Source: an uncultured bacterium (GTDB lineage Bacteria > UBP6 > UBA1177 > JAKLFG01). From it: a DNA stretch of 55,810 nt. The stretch spans positions 1 to 55,810 of the forward strand of contig CALMRE010000214.1 of assembly GCA_937871295.1 (NCBI GenBank), in the 5' to 3' direction. Below, piece by piece: positions 40,975 through 48,641 of this stretch. A model generated the notes under the pieces. The model saw nothing but the letters and a program-made list of their open reading frames with translations, ran no database searches and was not told the DNA's origin. The stretch's first letter is position 1. Every line of letters starts with the position of its first letter. Both the position numbers and the translations under genes were made by a program.

Positions 40975-41050
40975 GGGGCTGTAGCGCAGTTGGGAGCGCG
41001 CTAGAATCGCACTCTAGAGGCCGCCAGTTCGATCCTGGCCAGCTCCACCA
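40975..41050 (+). tRNA. tRNA-Ala (anticodon CGC)
   Basis: Complete cloverleaf of 76 nt including an encoded CCA (41048-41050). Acceptor GGGGCTG pairs with CAGCTCC (one G-U). The D stem is GCGC/GCGC and the anticodon stem CTAGA/TCTAG with loop ATCGCAC gives anticodon CGC, reading GCG alanine codons. The T arm is GCCAG-TTCGATC-CTGGC. No terminator hairpin is apparent after it. Confidence 0.96.
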
Positions 41051-41081: not shown

Positions 41082-42665
41082 TCACTCAAACGGGCAGATA
41101 CCTTCCTTTTCGCAGTAACAGGCAAGATCGCGAATATAGGCCAGAGGCGCTAAAGGTGTTTTCCATAGAAGATATTTATCATCAAAAGAATTGTAAACCA
41201 TATAATATCTTCCTACTCGCGGGTCCGTCACTTTCGTTGGACAATATTGCTTCTTAGTATCGAGCCGGTAGAAGCAGGCCTTTATATCTTTTCCAGCCGT
41301 CTCGTTGTAGAATATCTCACTATACAGCACAATATTCCCCTTGAACTGATCGGGGTAGGCTCCGTAACTGATAGTTTCGGTCATCGTGTAGGACAGTTCC
41401 GAATACACAGGGATGCCACTGGAAATATCCACATGAATCATGACCATCTTGTTAAGATCGTGGTATACCAATTCGTTCGGATTCTCTTCGTTGAGGCGCG
41501 GATCATTCACTGATTCCCCGTCGCGGTCAATACGCAAGCAATCGGTTTCGGGGTTGTACGGGAGTTTGGTAAGGTCACATACATAGATGTTTAGATAGGT
41601 GTCGATAAAGGTCAGGTGATCCCCTGCGACGCTTCCCTCATAAACCTTTTGTCGATTAAGGTCATGCCATATCCATTCGTCCATTTTTGCATACTTAACC
41701 TCCAAAGTATTATTGGAGCGATGTTCGATGTTCAGGACAATCCATTTTTCGCCTACGAAAGGAGGTCGGGAGAATTGTGCTTGGTGTTGTTCATCATCAT
41801 AAATGACTTCTTGACGGTACCCTTGGGCTTTTTGGGTGGAAGCCATTATATATGTTTTCTCCAAAGGCAACTTGCTCCAATGTTCGGAGCCTGAAACATA
41901 AATAAAGTTGCCATAACCATGGTTGCCTTCCAACGAATAGGCAACAGTGTTGAAAGCATCTTTTTGAACATCATACGCCATCATTCTGTGAGAGGCATAG
42001 TCATCAGTGCTTGCCCCCATCATGAGGAGTCCAGCTATCCCGTTTTGTATTTTTAGTGTATATAATTCGGCCGCGCTGGAATTGTAACCGCCAGCACTAA
42101 GCATCTTGTCACACTCGCTGTACGACACCGTTTCCGCCTTCATGTCGGGCATCTCGCAAGGCCACGGATAGCATTCCTTGTATGTCGCTGTTCCCTTTTT
42201 ATATTCTTGATATCTTCCCCAATTAACCCATTCCCACAGATTTCTCGCGCACTGGGGATCATTGTCGGTCGGGGTATCGCAGCCGGGACGGCAGAAGGTT
42301 ATCTTGCCATTCGCGTCCTTGAGCGGAAACCCAGCCGCCTTGACATTTTCGTAAACTTTGAGGTCGGGACATAACTCATCAATATCAGGCGCTTGGTCGA
42401 CATCACCGTTCGCCCCGGTATTATCAGCATCCGGCGACATCAAACCATCATCAGGCGGCTCGGCGACATCTATGTCATTTCCCGGTATCTCGATGCAGAA
42501 TTGAGCCGTGTTGCAGGAGTAGCCGTAGTCGCAATGGCCGCACGCAACGCCATCGATCATGCCGCACCGCCCAACACACGGATCGTTGTCGTTCGGTGCC
42601 GTCTTCGACGAAGTACACGCGGCAAGAAAAATGATCGTCAGATAGATTACGCACCGCAGGAACAT
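41082..42665 (-). CDS. Cys-rich lipoprotein of unknown function
   Basis: A 527-residue lipoprotein. The start at 42665 (MFLRCVIYLTIIFLAAC) has GGAGG seven bases upstream. A Cys-rich mini-domain ('CVGRCGMIDGVACGHCDYG') is followed by an acidic tether (about 60-95). The rest is beta-rich and could be a propeller ('HLTFIDTYLNIYVCDLTKLP', 'ISYGAYPDQFKGNIVLYSEI'). It ends in a Cys cluster. I do not recognise the family. The gene is clearly AT-richer than the neighbouring lipoproteins and follows the MNT gene by 25 bp, suggesting it arrived with the HEPN/MNT pair. Confidence 0.78.
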   Translation of the reverse strand: MFLRCVIYLTIIFLAACTSSKTAPNDNDPCVGRCGMIDGVACGHCDYGYSCNTAQFCIEIPGNDIDVAEPPDDGLMSPDADNTGANGDVDQAPDIDELCPDLKVYENVKAAGFPLKDANGKITFCRPGCDTPTDNDPQCARNLWEWVNWGRYQEYKKGTATYKECYPWPCEMPDMKAETVSYSECDKMLSAGGYNSSAAELYTLKIQNGIAGLLMMGASTDDYASHRMMAYDVQKDAFNTVAYSLEGNHGYGNFIYVSGSEHWSKLPLEKTYIMASTQKAQGYRQEVIYDDEQHQAQFSRPPFVGEKWIVLNIEHRSNNTLEVKYAKMDEWIWHDLNRQKVYEGSVAGDHLTFIDTYLNIYVCDLTKLPYNPETDCLRIDRDGESVNDPRLNEENPNELVYHDLNKMVMIHVDISSGIPVYSELSYTMTETISYGAYPDQFKGNIVLYSEIFYNETAGKDIKACFYRLDTKKQYCPTKVTDPRVGRYYMVYNSFDDKYLLWKTPLAPLAYIRDLACYCEKEGICPFE

Positions 42666-42690: not shown

Positions 42691-43005
42691 TTAGGCCGCC
42701 TTGGAATATATGAGTTCGCCGGTCCGCACGACCTCTTCGAGAAATCCGCTCCGGTCGCTCCCCTCTTCAAGCAGAACCGGCTCTATATTGACATCTATCG
42801 AGTTGCGCAACATATAGAGCTGCGATTCCAACGCAAGAAAATCACCGTCAATGCTATCGAAGATAACGGCTACATCGATATCGCTGTCGATACGCTGCGA
42901 ACCCTTTGCATAGGAACCGAACAGAATAACCCTGCTCGGATGATAGCGAAGAGCGACCGCCTGCGCGAACCGCCTTACTTTTTCGATGACCTTTCCTTTA
43001 TCCAT
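42691..43005 (-). CDS. MNT-type minimal nucleotidyltransferase (antitoxin)
   Basis: A 104-residue minimal nucleotidyltransferase. The signature is 'ILFGSYAKGSQRIDSDIDVAVI': GS followed ten residues later by D-x-D, the metal site. The start at 43005 is set by GAGGAA upstream and lies 31 bases inside the HEPN gene. In HEPN/MNT pairs the MNT enzyme usually inactivates the HEPN RNase by AMP transfer; that role is inferred from the family and gene order. Confidence 0.88.
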   Translation of the reverse strand: MDKGKVIEKVRRFAQAVALRYHPSRVILFGSYAKGSQRIDSDIDVAVIFDSIDGDFLALESQLYMLRNSIDVNIEPVLLEEGSDRSGFLEEVVRTGELIYSKAA

Positions 43006-43376
43006 ACCAACAGTTCCTCGGTGCTTTTTACCAACTCGCGGCATCGCATTTCGGTAAGCGACTTCAGCAACTTCTCTTTGTAGGTCGGGTACCGCGCCTC
43101 AATATTCAATGGCTCAAGAGTCGCCACGAATTCTTTCTGCGCGTCGCTCAAAGCATCATATATTTCCGCATCCATGGCGATCTTGGTGAGATTGTGCGAA
43201 TAAGGCGGAGTCGTCTGTTTCGCGGCGGCATACGAGCCCTTGAATGCCTTTTCGATAGTCTGGTGGCACATGAACCCAACATAGAGATAGCGCTTCGTTT
43301 TCAGCATCGCCCGCGCGGTCTCAAGATCGTATTCGGCTATTTCGAACCAATAAGCCGTTTTCTCGGCGTGCTCCAT
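42975..43376 (-). CDS. HEPN-domain protein (toxin partner)
   Basis: A 133-residue all-helical HEPN-domain protein: 'WFEIAEYDLETARAMLKTKRY', 'CHQTIEKAFKG', 'PPYSHNLTKIA' and 'ARYPTYKEK' are the usual landmarks of this HEPN family. I cannot find the canonical R-x4-6-H ribonuclease motif of HepT-type toxins, so its activity is uncertain. It overlaps the MNT gene, the standard arrangement, and has its own strong promoter directly upstream. Confidence 0.87.
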   Translation of the reverse strand: MEHAEKTAYWFEIAEYDLETARAMLKTKRYLYVGFMCHQTIEKAFKGSYAAAKQTTPPYSHNLTKIAMDAEIYDALSDAQKEFVATLEPLNIEARYPTYKEKLLKSLTEMRCRELVKSTEELLVWIKERSSKK

Positions 43377-43400: not shown

Positions 43401-43429
43401 ATCTTACTGGAACGGCATTCTTTTGTCAA
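43401..43429 (-). promoter_or_regulatory. HEPN/MNT promoter
   Basis: Minus strand consensus TTGACA (43429-43424), 17-bp spacer, TAAGAT (43406-43401). The -35 box is separated by one base from the end of the 59-bp repeat copy, so the promoter begins where the repeat ends. Confidence 0.72.
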
Positions 43430-43430
43430 T

Positions 43431-43489
43431 GTAAAGCGGAGGGACTATTTCTCCGGGGACTTCTCCTTCTCCAGCGCCGCGAGCGTCAC
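43431..43489 (-). repeat. 59-bp direct repeat, copy A
   Basis: Identical to 47647-47705 except for one base (43463 C versus 47679 T). It lies between the second Kelch gene and the HEPN promoter, 4216 bp from the other copy. Confidence 0.95.
43445..43489 (-). pseudogene. Duplicated 3' end of the YbhN-like gene
   Basis: Within repeat copy A the minus strand reads VTLAALEKEKSPEK then TAG, the exact last 14 codons and stop of the YbhN-like gene at 47661. The sole difference between copies is synonymous (GAG versus GAA). No upstream part of the gene is present. Confidence 0.9.
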
Positions 43490-43510
43490 CGAACGGTTAG
43501 ATGATCTTTT

Positions 43511-45598
43511 TTACTGGTCGACGGGGATCAAGGGTATCTCGGCGACGCGTACATCCCCGAAATCCTCATAGCTGAGTTTCTGATACCGGCCGCCGAACAG
43601 ATACCACTGAGCGCCGCGGACTGCCGAAACCTGACCCCACCGACCCTGCATCTCGACGGGAGATTGCGCCGCAGGATACCACATTGCACCGTCCCGCGAA
43701 TACCAAAGATCGGAAAATGACCCTCCGGTATAGCTGTATCCGCCGTACAACCAGAGCCCCCCATTCACCGGCTGAGCGACGGCACCATAACGCGGTTCAA
43801 AAGAGGCATGGCGCACCACCTCTTCCCAATGGATGCCGTCGGTGGAACGCCAGACATCGTTGCGGCATTCGAACGAGGAGAACCGTGTTATCTGGCCGCC
43901 GACGACCCAGATCGCGCCGTCGAAGACGAACGTGGCGTGAAGCGCCCGCACCGGGAAGGGCTCCACGACCTCCAGCGGCGAGAAGTCGACACCGTCAGAG
44001 GAACACCAGACATCGTTGCCCGCATCGCCGTCGATATCGAATCCGCCGAGGAGGCAGAGTTGTTCCTGCCACACGACCGCGCCGTGTCCTTGCCGCGGCG
44101 GGAATGCGGCATTGTCGGTCGCCAGTGTCCATTCGACGCCGTCGGTCGAATGCCACACATCGTTGGAGGCCTCCCCGTCCATGCCGCCGACAAGCACCAA
44201 TGTATCGTTGAAGGCGCTGAGCGAATGACCGGCGCGGGGGCCGAACGCCGGTGTCTGGTTCAGAAGTTCCCAGTTCACGCCATCGGATGATCGCCACACG
44301 TCGTCGAGCATGACGTTCTTCTTATTTTCGATCTCCCAGTTCCTTCCACCGACCACATAGAAATGGCCTTCAAGATCGGCAACGGCGTGAAGACTTCGTC
44401 CGGTGAAGGATGCGGTGTTCTGCTCCATCGAATGCCAGACAAGGTCATTCTCCGTGTAATGGACCACGCTTTCCTGTTCTCCCGCGACGATGAAAAGACG
44501 GTCATTGAGGGTGGCAAGACCGGCGTCGGTCGGAACACCGCCTTCCGGTCCGGTGATCGTTTCCCAGTTTTCTCCGTCAACGCTTGCCAGCAAGGTGTTG
44601 CCTCCCTGACGCGGCGCCAATAACATCCGTCCATCGAATACCGCACCCAGCATCCCGCCGCTTGGGAAAGGAGCATCACCCGTGACGAGTTCCCATGTCT
44701 CGCCGTCATCGCTGACCCAGACCTCGCGGGAGGTCGCGCTTTCGATGGAACCGAAAAGCCATGCCCGTCCATCAAAGACCACGGCGGCTGCACCGCTCCG
44801 GGGCACGAACATATCCCGCGCCGCCTCTTCCCAGACAAAGCCGTCAACGGAACGGTACAGGACTGAACGCGGCGTCCCCGTCGTATCGTAATTGTTTAGC
44901 ACCCACATCGAGCCGAGGAACGAGAAGAAAGCAGGATGCGTGGTCGGAGCGAAGGGAAGGTCCCCGGCGCTTCCCACCGGCTGAAAAGCGATCGACATTC
45001 CGTTCGACTCCGCCTTGAAGAGATATTTATCAAGTCCCACATAGGGCGGCGGAGCATACGATGTCCCGTTCACCAGATAGAGCTCGTTGTTGTGGACGGT
45101 GCCCGAGTATCCCTGCAGGGTCACCTCCGGGAGTATCGACGGAATGGTACCGGCCCACATGTCGGCCGATGCAAGATGCCACGACAGCCCGTCGACGGTG
45201 TGCCAGACATCCTCAAGATAACCGTCGGCGCCGACACCGCCGATGAGCCACAATGAGTTGAAATAAGGCATCAGCAATGGTTCGGAGCGACCTTCGAACC
45301 AATCGCCACCGGCGATGACATGCCAGGTCACATTCAACGGAGGTTCATCGTCTACCGGGGATACTCCATCGGTATCGGGGAAATCGTCTCCTGCCAGCGA
45401 GTCGTCCTGTTCGAGAGCGTCCAATGGCTCATCCGAAAGGACCATGTCGTCATCAGGGACCATCTCTTCATCGATGACCGGAAGAATATCCGCTTCGCTT
45501 TCCGGTAACGGGTCGTTCGTTGTGCCGCAGGATGCCGCCCAGAGGCCCAAAAGGAGCGCGGCAAGCATCCGGCTGTTATTTCGGCGAAGGAAAGACAT
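43511..45598 (-). CDS. Kelch/Asp-box repeat lipoprotein (second of pair)
   Basis: A 695-residue lipoprotein. The start at 45598 overlaps the previous stop by ATGA and begins MSFLRRNNSRMLAALLLGLWAASC (C24). An acidic tether about 60 residues long follows ('DEEMVPDDDMVLSDEPLDAL'). The remainder is a run of about nine units built on 'DVW-x-S-x-DG-x-x-W' (for example DVWRSSDGVNWELL, DVWHSTDGVEWTLA) with 'LW/VVGG' strands between. This is a Kelch-like propeller decorated with Asp-box-like turns. It is closely similar in plan to its neighbour and probably a tandem paralogue exposed on the cell surface. Confidence 0.85.
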   Translation of the reverse strand: MSFLRRNNSRMLAALLLGLWAASCGTTNDPLPESEADILPVIDEEMVPDDDMVLSDEPLDALEQDDSLAGDDFPDTDGVSPVDDEPPLNVTWHVIAGGDWFEGRSEPLLMPYFNSLWLIGGVGADGYLEDVWHTVDGLSWHLASADMWAGTIPSILPEVTLQGYSGTVHNNELYLVNGTSYAPPPYVGLDKYLFKAESNGMSIAFQPVGSAGDLPFAPTTHPAFFSFLGSMWVLNNYDTTGTPRSVLYRSVDGFVWEEAARDMFVPRSGAAAVVFDGRAWLFGSIESATSREVWVSDDGETWELVTGDAPFPSGGMLGAVFDGRMLLAPRQGGNTLLASVDGENWETITGPEGGVPTDAGLATLNDRLFIVAGEQESVVHYTENDLVWHSMEQNTASFTGRSLHAVADLEGHFYVVGGRNWEIENKKNVMLDDVWRSSDGVNWELLNQTPAFGPRAGHSLSAFNDTLVLVGGMDGEASNDVWHSTDGVEWTLATDNAAFPPRQGHGAVVWQEQLCLLGGFDIDGDAGNDVWCSSDGVDFSPLEVVEPFPVRALHATFVFDGAIWVVGGQITRFSSFECRNDVWRSTDGIHWEEVVRHASFEPRYGAVAQPVNGGLWLYGGYSYTGGSFSDLWYSRDGAMWYPAAQSPVEMQGRWGQVSAVRGAQWYLFGGRYQKLSYEDFGDVRVAEIPLIPVDQ

Positions 45599-47616
45599 CA
45601 AGGCCTCCCCTGCTCTTCTATCTGTGCGGCCCACACATCGCCGAGCGGGCAATTCGCCGCATCACGGGTATCCAGACCGCCGACGACCACAAAGGCGTCG
45701 TCATGGATCACCACCGAGAAATCGATGCGCGGCGCGAACGGGGCATCATGCATGAAACGCCACTCCGCTCCTTCCACCGAACACCACACCTCTGACAGGG
45801 GGTTGGCGTCATGTCCACCGATAAGGCAAAGATAATCGCCGTAGGAAACCGGCTCGGCGCCGAATCGCGGCGAAAAAGGAGGCGCGGGAAGAAGTTCCCA
45901 CTCGTTCCCGTCATCCGAACGGTACACCTGTGATGCATTTCGGTGGAACGCATATATCTTGCCTTGATGGACCAGCATCCTCCCGGGTTCGGAGGTTCTG
46001 GTAAAGCTCTCCATTTTCTCCCAAGCGACGCCGTCGGCGGTACGCCACACATCGTAGAGATCGCCGTCGTCATCCTCGCCGCCGAACAGATAAAGCATAT
46101 CGTCGAAGACGAACAGCGATGCCAAGGACCGTTCAGGGAACGGCCCCTTTTCGAGCATTTGGTCCCAATTCTTGCCGTTCGTCGAACGCCACACATCGCT
46201 TTGCCGCCCCACGCCATAGGTGGATCCGCCGACAAGCCAAAGCGCCCCCTTATAGACGGCGAGCGATGCGTCGACACGTGTACCGAACGGGGCGTCAGCG
46301 ATGGCGCGTTCCCAGTAAATACCGTCCAGCGAGCGCCATATCTCGCTTTTATAGTTGTTCTGATCCGATCGGTTCCATCCGCCGATGACCCACAGGTACC
46401 CGTCAAAACTCGCCGCCGCATGGCCCTGTCGGGCCGTGAAAGGACGATCCGGGAACAGGTCTTCCCATGAAAGGGCATCGGTGCTCTGATAGAGATAACG
46501 GTCTATCTCGCTCCTTTCGCTGGAAGAAGAATACCCTCCAAAGAGGTTCAGCATGGTATCGGTGACCACGACCTGCTGTTCGTAGCGAGCGATGACCGGT
46601 TCGACCTCGCTCACCAACTCCCAGCTCACTCCGTCGGCACTCGACCACACATCGGTCAACAACGCGTAGTTTTCATCCATTCCGCCCATGAGGTAGAGAC
46701 GGCCACCGAACGAAAGCACCTTGGGATCGGCGCGCGCCGTAAAGGGACCGTCGGATAGTTTCTCCCACGAAAAACCGTCCGTCGAGGACCAGACATCGTT
46801 GTGCACCTGATCGCCATCATCGCCACCGATGATGTAAAGGGCGTCATTATGAATGGTCCATCCGAATTGCACACGCGGCTCGAATGGCGCCGGGCTGGCC
46901 GTCCAGGTCACCCCTTCATCTTCGGAAACGTACGCGCTTTCGCAGATCGGCGTTCCGTTCCCGTACCAACAGCGGCTTCCCAGCAGCCATAACCGGTCGT
47001 CAAGAGCGACCAACACCGGCTTGTCACGTTCACCGAATGGACAGCCGACGCATCGACGATGCCAGTAACGGCCATCGTCCGAGTACCAGAGATCGTCGAG
47101 AGACCCCAGAGCGCCACGGCCACCGGCCATCCAAAGGCGGTCATGATAGGTGGTCATGGCATGGCTTATCCTGCGGGGGAAAGCACCGTTTTCAAGGAGC
47201 GATTCCCAATGCACCCCATCGGTCGAACGCCACACATCGTCCTCGACCTGACAGTGAGAAGCGCCGCCGCTCAGGAACCACGCAGCCCCCAGTTTGCTGA
47301 CTGCGGCGCCATAACGTTCGGGAACACCTTCACGCCCGGCCAGTTGCGACCACGAACTCAGAACAAGGTCGTCTATCGACACCAGGTCTGCGTCGGTCGA
47401 CCAATCCGTCTCGCCCGAAAGACCCTCATCCTCATCGGACAGGATCCCGTCCGATTCGATCAAAAGAAAAGCATCTTCCTCGGTCTCAACAATGGCATTA
47501 TCAGCGACCGGCACGTCGCCGTCGGGCGTCACCGCGTCGGCGTCATGCTCCGTCTTCGCTGACGAACACGCGGCGAGAAGAGCCGCGAAAACGATGAGGT
47601 ATTTTCTCCCAACCAT
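45598..47616 (-). CDS. Kelch/Asp-box repeat lipoprotein (first of pair)
   Basis: A 672-residue lipoprotein starting at 47616 (MVGRKYLIVFAALLAAC); open frame upstream belongs to another gene. An Asp/Glu-rich tether spans about 20-75. I count about eleven 'DVW-x-S-x-DG-x-x-W' units (DVWRSTDGVHWESL, DVWSSTDGFSWEKL, EIWRSLDGIYWERA, DVWRTADGVAWEKM and others), enough for one large or two propellers. There is no good Shine-Dalgarno, and the predicted promoter places the transcription start at or beside the ATG, so a leaderless mRNA is possible. Confidence 0.85.
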   Translation of the reverse strand: MVGRKYLIVFAALLAACSSAKTEHDADAVTPDGDVPVADNAIVETEEDAFLLIESDGILSDEDEGLSGETDWSTDADLVSIDDLVLSSWSQLAGREGVPERYGAAVSKLGAAWFLSGGASHCQVEDDVWRSTDGVHWESLLENGAFPRRISHAMTTYHDRLWMAGGRGALGSLDDLWYSDDGRYWHRRCVGCPFGERDKPVLVALDDRLWLLGSRCWYGNGTPICESAYVSEDEGVTWTASPAPFEPRVQFGWTIHNDALYIIGGDDGDQVHNDVWSSTDGFSWEKLSDGPFTARADPKVLSFGGRLYLMGGMDENYALLTDVWSSADGVSWELVSEVEPVIARYEQQVVVTDTMLNLFGGYSSSSERSEIDRYLYQSTDALSWEDLFPDRPFTARQGHAAASFDGYLWVIGGWNRSDQNNYKSEIWRSLDGIYWERAIADAPFGTRVDASLAVYKGALWLVGGSTYGVGRQSDVWRSTNGKNWDQMLEKGPFPERSLASLFVFDDMLYLFGGEDDDGDLYDVWRTADGVAWEKMESFTRTSEPGRMLVHQGKIYAFHRNASQVYRSDDGNEWELLPAPPFSPRFGAEPVSYGDYLCLIGGHDANPLSEVWCSVEGAEWRFMHDAPFAPRIDFSVVIHDDAFVVVGGLDTRDAANCPLGDVWAAQIEEQGRP

Positions 47617-47622
47617 GCCGCC

Positions 47623-47651
47623 ATAATAGCCAAATGTTCTCGGAAAGTAAA
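47623..47651 (-). promoter_or_regulatory. Putative promoter of the Kelch pair
   Basis: Minus strand TTTACT (47651-47646), 17-bp spacer, TATTAT (47628-47623). The -35 sits at the edge of repeat copy B. The start point would be about 47616. Confidence 0.5.
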
Positions 47652-47705
47652 GCGGAGGGACTATTTCTCCGGGGACTTTTCCTTCTCCAGCGCCGCGAGC
47701 GTCAC
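47647..47705 (-). repeat. 59-bp direct repeat, copy B (source)
   Basis: The native copy: the last 14 codons and stop of the YbhN-like gene plus 14 bp beyond. See copy A at 43431-43489. Confidence 0.95.
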
Positions 47706-48641
47706 ATGATTGCGCCACAGCCACACAAGACCGATGATGGTGACCGGCACTATCTGCGCCATGTGGAGCACCAGCGCCACCGCCATGCCGAGCGTCGTAA
47801 CGATGGCGAATATCTCCAGCGATTTGACCACCGCGTACTGGAACACCCCCAAACCGCCTGGCGTCGAGGGAATGAGCATCCCCATGTTGACCGTCACGAG
47901 CATCAGCAGGTACGCTATCCACGGGATATCGAGCCCGAACGCTCTGACGACGAGCACATAGACCCCTATCTCGATGCTCCAGACGACGAACGACAGGATG
48001 AGCACCGTCGCGAGTTGCGATAAAGACTCTATCGCCCGGGTGCCGTGCAGGAACTTCTCGAGCAGTTCGAACGGCATCGCCAGCCACTTGGGGACCCGCC
48101 CCGAAACGGCGCGGACGATACGCACCGGCAGATCGGAAAAACTGCTGAAAAGGACGAAAACGAACAGCGACACGAAGATGAGCCCCGCCAGTTCGGCGAG
48201 ATTGCGCACCCACCCCGGGAAGGGATAGACGAACAGGAGCGCCGCGAGAATGAGGAAGACCGTCAGCCCGTCGAATATCCGTTCGACGAATATCGAGGCG
48301 AAGGCGGCGGTGCGGGAGATGCCGTTGCGGCTCCCGGCGAGGTAGGCGCGGGTGAATTCGCCGATGCGCGACGGCAGGACGTTGTTGACGGCGTAGCCCG
48401 CCATGACCAGCCGTATCGATTCGACGAGCGATATCTTCTTGAGATGGCCGAGCAAGGCCCGCCAGCGCAGTCCGCGGATGACGAACGACGAGAGGTAGAG
48501 CGCCATCCCGGCGGCGACATAGAAAAGATTGCTGTCGGCGAGATATCTGACGAACAGCGCCAGATCTATCTGGCGGAACAGCAGCCAGAAGAGCAGTACG
48601 GTGACGAAAAAACCCAGCAGCGCTTTTATCCGGTTGTTCAT
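47661..48641 (-). CDS. YbhN/LPTM-family integral membrane protein
   Basis: A 326-residue polytopic membrane protein of the UPF0104/lysylphosphatidylglycerol synthase transmembrane family (PF03706). Family landmarks include 'SFVIRGLRWRALL', 'GYAVNNVLPSRIGEFTRAYL', 'SIFVERIFDGLTVF' and 'IPSTPGGLGVFQYAVV'. About eight helices are seen. The soluble LPG synthase domain is absent, so a lipid transport or flippase-like role is more likely than aminoacyl transfer. The ATG overlaps the stop of the PAS-REC-HPt gene (ATGA). Its 3' end is duplicated at 43431. Confidence 0.9.
   Translation of the reverse strand: MNNRIKALLGFFVTVLLFWLLFRQIDLALFVRYLADSNLFYVAAGMALYLSSFVIRGLRWRALLGHLKKISLVESIRLVMAGYAVNNVLPSRIGEFTRAYLAGSRNGISRTAAFASIFVERIFDGLTVFLILAALLFVYPFPGWVRNLAELAGLIFVSLFVFVLFSSFSDLPVRIVRAVSGRVPKWLAMPFELLEKFLHGTRAIESLSQLATVLILSFVVWSIEIGVYVLVVRAFGLDIPWIAYLLMLVTVNMGMLIPSTPGGLGVFQYAVVKSLEIFAIVTTLGMAVALVLHMAQIVPVTIIGLVWLWRNHVTLAALEKEKSPEK

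Follow-up and report, generated by a model that had tools for sequence, protein, structure and literature searches.

Genes and repeats between YbhN and tRNA-Ala

The window, i.e., the whole stretch of 55,810 nucleotides that was analyzed, carries a single direct repeat of at least 24 bp. Its two copies lie in the interval from the end of a YbhN-like gene to a tRNA-Ala gene and enclose two Kelch-repeat lipoprotein genes, lipo2 and lipo1, and no other gene. Past the distal copy follow a HEPN-domain gene, an MNT nucleotidyltransferase gene, a third lipoprotein gene (lipo3) and tRNA-Ala(CGC). Listed from YbhN onward the features are:

47661..48641, minus strand: YbhN-like gene, 3' end duplicated (Pfam LPG_synthase_TM)
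47647..47705, minus strand: repeat copy B, made up of the tail of the intact YbhN-like gene and 14 further bp, ending in TTTAC (sequence comparison)
47623..47651, minus strand: lipo2 promoter-like site TTTACT-17-TATTAT, overlapping copy B
45598..47616, minus strand: lipo2, Kelch-repeat lipoprotein gene; its stop overlaps the lipo1 start (TGATG) (Pfam)
43511..45598, minus strand: lipo1, Kelch-repeat lipoprotein gene, second of the pair (Pfam)
43486..43498, minus strand: joint of the lipo1 3' flank and the spare tail, AACCGTTCG followed by GTGA
43431..43489, minus strand: repeat copy A, spare YbhN tail (58/59) not attached to a gene, with the HEPN promoter 2 bp away
43401..43429, minus strand: HEPN-gene promoter-like site TTGACA-17-TAAGAT
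42975..43376, minus strand: HEPN-domain gene, putative toxin-type half of a HEPN/MNT pair (Pfam)
42691..43044, minus strand: MNT nucleotidyltransferase gene, putative antitoxin-type half; PADLOC candidate PDC-S09 (Pfam, PADLOC)
41082..42665, minus strand: lipo3, lipoprotein gene co-occurring with HEPN-MNT
40975..41050, plus strand: tRNA-Ala(CGC), where the variable interval ends on its far side; in the sister species G001 the target that was duplicated is the 3' end of this tRNA

Pfam matches comprise the Kelch repeats, the HEPN and nucleotidyltransferase domains, and LPG_synthase_TM for the YbhN-like protein. The HEPN and nucleotidyltransferase domains reside in adjacent, overlapping genes, i.e., in a HEPN/MNT arrangement with putative toxin and antitoxin roles. 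The Pfam scan identified no transposase or integrase among the locus genes, as an earlier note made from the sequence alone had stated.

Copies A and B are spaced by 4216 bp and identical in 58 of 59 bases. Both encode VTLAALEKEKSPEK and a stop, i.e., the final 14 codons of the YbhN-like gene, and continue for 14 bp. The single mismatch is synonymous, GAA in copy B versus GAG in copy A. The repeats fit the pair closely: 30 bp separate copy B from the lipo2 ATG and 21 bp separate the lipo1 stop from copy A, while on its other side copy A ends 2 bp ahead of the HEPN -35 box. The earlier note had described just this, a duplicated YbhN 3' end with one silent difference, enclosing exactly the Kelch pair and leaving a spare tail at the HEPN promoter, and the description is borne out. 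One feature was absent from it: the terminal TTTAC of the repeat supplies five of the six bases of the lipo2 -35-like box. When the repeats are joined in silico the YbhN protein remains unaltered; in principle, a clean deletion would thus be harmless to YbhN, as was claimed. All in all, the 59-bp repeat looks like the scar of new DNA spliced in behind the YbhN-like gene.

Other identities of the repeat were considered and discarded. An RNA element or terminator was rejected, as the repeat folds no better than shuffled sequence and Rfam reports at this locus a tRNA and nothing for the repeat. A viral origin was rejected for want of a match in viral contigs.

The longest identical stretch shared by the copies is 32 bp; hence a plain k-mer collapse during assembly does not account for the repeat. 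Two strain versions might have been misjoined in this metagenome-derived contig, since the nearest relatives are metagenome-assembled genomes in which strain mixtures are to be expected. However, the copies differ by a base, the joint falls at a flank outside the repeat, and like structures are present in separately assembled genomes. We regard an artefact of this kind as highly improbable.

The interval in related genomes

Four relatives of the same family were compared, some of them incomplete. G001, the sister species of the window's own genome (G000), has a YbhN protein which is 90% identical, and synteny with the window holds on both sides of the interval. The content between YbhN and tRNA-Ala is a different one: a DUF6141 gene, a different lipoprotein gene and an AAA_14/DUF4143 gene. 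Neither the Kelch pair nor the HEPN-MNT-lipo3 module is present in the G001 interval. Thus, the interval is variable. The best matches of lipo2 elsewhere in G001 are weak and the G001 HEPN homologues are distant. In G002 and G004, YbhN has other neighbors.

The HEPN-MNT-lipo3 trio reappears in G002, a member of another genus, between hrcA and hemW (L096, G002:C237, 7583-9826), and its HEPN-MNT part is 85% identical in nucleotides to that of the window. G004 contains the trio in a broken form with a disrupted HEPN gene (L097, G004:C53). Judged by this distribution, HEPN-MNT-lipo3 forms a separate unit.

The G001 interval bears a scar too. Its DUF4143 gene is flanked by a 60-bp direct repeat (59/60) which consists of the terminal part of tRNA-Ala and its 3' flank. 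In the window tRNA-Ala directly abuts the native flank, i.e., the site is seen here without the G001 DUF4143 insert. The earlier note took the direct junction of YbhN with the HEPN promoter as the original state; this junction was looked for and found in 0 of 24 relatives. Among the same 24, no genome with just one of the two interval versions proposed below was found.

The probable older junction and the probable derived copy

Positions 47595-47655 of the window align over 61 bp, gapless and with 82% identity, with the promoter region of the lipoprotein gene that follows YbhN in G001. All nine aligned bases inside the repeat match (9/9; chance about 4e-6). Further, the GAG of copy A departs from the GAA shared by copy B and the tails of G001 and G002. 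The promoter alignment, taken together with the TTTAC in the lipo2 -35 box, argues that the YbhN-lipo2 junction is old and that copy A is derived. From these comparisons the junction of YbhN with the lipoprotein promoter, or at least its lipoprotein half, probably was present in the genus ahead of the duplication and is partly common to G001, and copy A on the HEPN side is probably the derived copy. The view of the earlier note, with the lipoprotein pair as the newcomer and the YbhN-HEPN junction as the original state, is not supported in this form, given a gapless alignment of copy B and the lipo2 promoter to G001 and a deviating base in copy A.

The joint itself offers a further hint. The lipo1 3' flank, AACCGTTCG with the adjoining GTGA, agrees in 12 of 13 bases with the flank of tRNA-Ala that adjoins the G001 DUF4143 gene. 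This would be expected if lipo1 once adjoined tRNA-Ala; the match is short and was noticed post hoc, and we take it as suggestive. AACCGTTCRGTGA, which occurs at the joints of both the window and G001 and was therefore suspected to be a shared terminal motif, may be old tRNA-Ala flank. As the end of a general element AACCGTTCRGTGA was rejected: its other matches in 25 genomes lie in ordinary sequence, partly in conserved genes, and are devoid of flanking repeats.

A tandem duplication reaching from the YbhN tail through the lipoproteins, with HEPN-MNT-lipo3 subsequently replacing the second copy, would produce a junction of exactly this appearance, GTGA being the microhomology. Yet it requires a second replacement, cleanly delimited where the repeat ends, and a remnant of a second Kelch copy was not found. 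We deem this course of events decidedly unlikely.

Gene-tail scars across the order

This type of scar is not special to Kelch cassettes. It also flanks DUF4143, RhuM and HEPN genes. The flanks of every fetched DUF4143 gene were aligned and a flanking direct repeat was counted at a score of at least 24. About 1.38 Mb of loci were scanned, partly picked for their DUF4143 genes, and the control sets were ORF-based. Most of the remaining repeats in the scan lie within proteins, stem from paralogues or are dispersed, and they were not considered further. Flanking repeats were present at 7 of about 52 evaluable DUF4143 genes versus 0 of 436 other genes, all of which scored 15 or less (Fisher p about 1e-7). 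For RhuM the count is 10/30 versus 0/359 controls; the flanks of L232, L234 and L252 may be dispersed repeats or paralogues, and dropping these three leaves 7/30 (p about 8e-9). For HEPN it is 2/13, again with 0/359 controls. The proteins concerned match PADLOC candidate defence families, DUF4143 matching PDC-S01, RhuM PDC-S05 and MNT PDC-S09; a DUF262-type gene matches PADLOC HEC-05.

The scars cluster at the ends of genes. An ORF stop is contained in or abutted by 12 of 22 scars, and 14 of 22 when the YbhN and tRNA cases are included; for random 60-mers the corresponding share is about 7%. Repeat length is 59 bp in the window and 28-195 bp in the 21 other cases. Individual loci illustrate the range. 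A RhuM gene in the genome that contains the window lies between a neighbor's intact 3' end and a diverged 59-bp copy of it (L229, G000:C98, 320-378/1640-1698). In G001 the last nine codons and the stop of a CDF transporter gene form an exact 35-bp scar around DUF4143 (L168, G001:C12, 7513-7547/8753-8787); the corresponding G000 locus (L274, G000:C56) retains the transporter-DUF4143 junction and a deleted DUF4143 remnant and has no scar. The rnhB 3' end is duplicated across another DUF4143 gene (L177, G001:C13, 4300-4342/5667-5709), an old scar with several substitutions and a stop codon within the spare copy. At L201 the scar derives from a thioesterase-like gene. A wider scan added L189, L190 and L209; at L190 (G006:C210, 3741-8732) two DUF4143 genes and the DUF262-type gene are enclosed by a 54-bp repeat located at a transporter gene's end. 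Two HEPN genes have flanking direct repeats of 169 bp (L263, G005:C20) and 195 bp (L267, G002:C146). Finally, one DUF4143 unit together with its promoter region is common to L165 (G001:C1) and L164 (G000:C31), which are unrelated loci with similar ends.

L050 (G001:C6), possibly a paralogue and starting where its contig does, was left out of the counts. Here, a 130-bp copy of a GNAT gene tail precedes RhuM-GNAT (1-130/1775-1904), and the contig stops exactly at the repeat.

The targets of different units possess no common core sequence. This speaks against a site-specific cassette system, integrase-borne or integron-like, in which the repeats would be attachment sites and the pair excisable. 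Attachment sites are classically found at the 3' ends of genes and tRNAs, to be sure, and an exact YbhN gene would be regained if the repeats recombined. The interval is nevertheless without an integrase, and the repeat has neither a significant fold nor matches in viral contigs. A system of this type is very unlikely.

A second possibility, a broader form of the reading in the earlier note, is that the 4.2-kb lipoprotein pair was inserted behind YbhN with duplication of a 59-bp target, creating two new joints by whichever enzyme or repair route underlies other insertions with long target duplications. The tight fit of the repeats around the pair is compatible with this, as is the like geometry around DUF4143 and RhuM units, in which the 3' gap often is 2-19 bp; the Kelch pair is also missing from G001. 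On the other hand, the junction of YbhN with the lipo2 promoter appears ancestral, most of the lipo2 -35 box sits in the repeat, and Kelch lipoproteins are not of the defence or toxin type, unlike the other units. We consider an insertion of the pair rather unlikely.

Proposed stacking of alternative interval contents

The explanation which we tentatively place first, at a little less than an even chance, is a recombination that stacked two alternative contents of the YbhN to tRNA-Ala interval end to end. We infer two parental versions, YbhN-lipo2-lipo1 and YbhN-HEPN-MNT-lipo3-tRNA-Ala, and the following order of events. Incoming DNA would have been exchanged by homology on one side. On the other side an illegitimate joint, possibly at the shared GTGA, would have connected the lipo1 3' flank to the other YbhN gene, 59 bp short of the end of the repeat. 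The spare tail on the HEPN-MNT side would then be the remaining stump of the YbhN gene of the second version. In this manner, stacking might generate the signature of an insertion with long target duplication without any mobility enzyme.

Several observations argue for stacking. Because the YbhN-lipo2 junction aligns with G001, it needs just one new joint. HEPN-MNT-lipo3 recurs as its own unit in G002. The G001 interval displays a like scar around a gene of another kind, an insert that is missing from the tRNA site of the window. At the CDF locus, G000 shows the transporter-DUF4143 junction free of a scar. The enrichment of scars at DUF4143 and RhuM genes and their position at gene 3' ends point in the same direction. 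Against stacking stands the failure to find a single-version genome among the 24 relatives. The motif match at the joint is short and other matches are in ordinary sequence, and repeats of 28-195 bp are shorter than free illegitimate joining suggests. Moreover, at least one DUF4143 unit occupies unrelated loci with similar ends in G000 and G001, which resembles true transposition of a discrete unit. This speaks against one scheme for every case: since the unit is at differing loci, a site must first be entered by some additional step, perhaps a true insertion with target duplication.

More generally, it is possible, if doubtful, that a transposase-free process repeatedly sets compact transcription units at gene or tRNA 3' ends in this order and duplicates 28-195 bp of target each time. 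The units would be lone candidate defence genes (AAA_14/DUF4143, RhuM) and occasionally cargo of another sort, like the lipoproteins here, the window being one product.

Comparison with known systems

The signature as such is of a known kind. It matches the insertion with long target duplication of Helicobacter, and is met here recurrently in an uncultured bacterial order around candidate phage-defence genes. Long, variable target duplications were reported for restriction-modification genes of H. pylori (Nobusato et al., 2000, Gene 259:99; Furuta et al., 2010, NAR 38:2428), as described in passages of PMC1643837, PMC3031569 and PMC3874152. Common to those descriptions and our loci are long direct repeats of target DNA, variable in length and for the known kind on the order of 100 bp, around an insert and the lack of a transposase, and our sister loci carry defence- or toxin-antitoxin-linked genes (DUF4143, RhuM, DUF262-type). 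The window differs from what these passages describe. The cargo in the window is Kelch lipoproteins and not a restriction-modification, selfish or defence gene, which is typical, though not strictly required. Also, the repeat is a gene 3' end, and the order of sequences suggests one new joint instead of two.

Target-site duplications of transposons usually comprise a few bases. Direct repeats around an insert are common to transposons and to the present scars, which differ by their length of 28-195 bp, the lack of a transposase and the fact that no terminal inverted repeats were identified. With integrative elements at tRNA or gene 3' ends they share a duplicated 3' end that restores the gene; unlike such elements they have no integrase and no common core, and the inserts go down to a single gene. 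Homology-facilitated illegitimate recombination, in which one side is homologous and the other is not, would place a stump of the resident gene beside the incoming DNA, the joint lying at a short microhomology.

The movement of restriction, toxin-antitoxin and lone defence genes in the absence of a mobility enzyme has called for an explanation ever since long target duplications were described in Helicobacter. The order offers more than 20 scars, and for some of them the insert is missing from, or located elsewhere in, a sister genome, so that the mechanism becomes readable from sequence. Judged by the window and the CDF transporter locus, some of the long target duplications may have arisen as stumps when alleles were stacked and not as products of transposition.

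Kelch lipoprotein genes in tandem are found a second time in the window's genome (L098, G000:C171, 9555-13543). This pair, about 36% identical to lipo2, adjoins a glyceraldehyde-3-phosphate dehydrogenase-like gene and is without flanking repeats.
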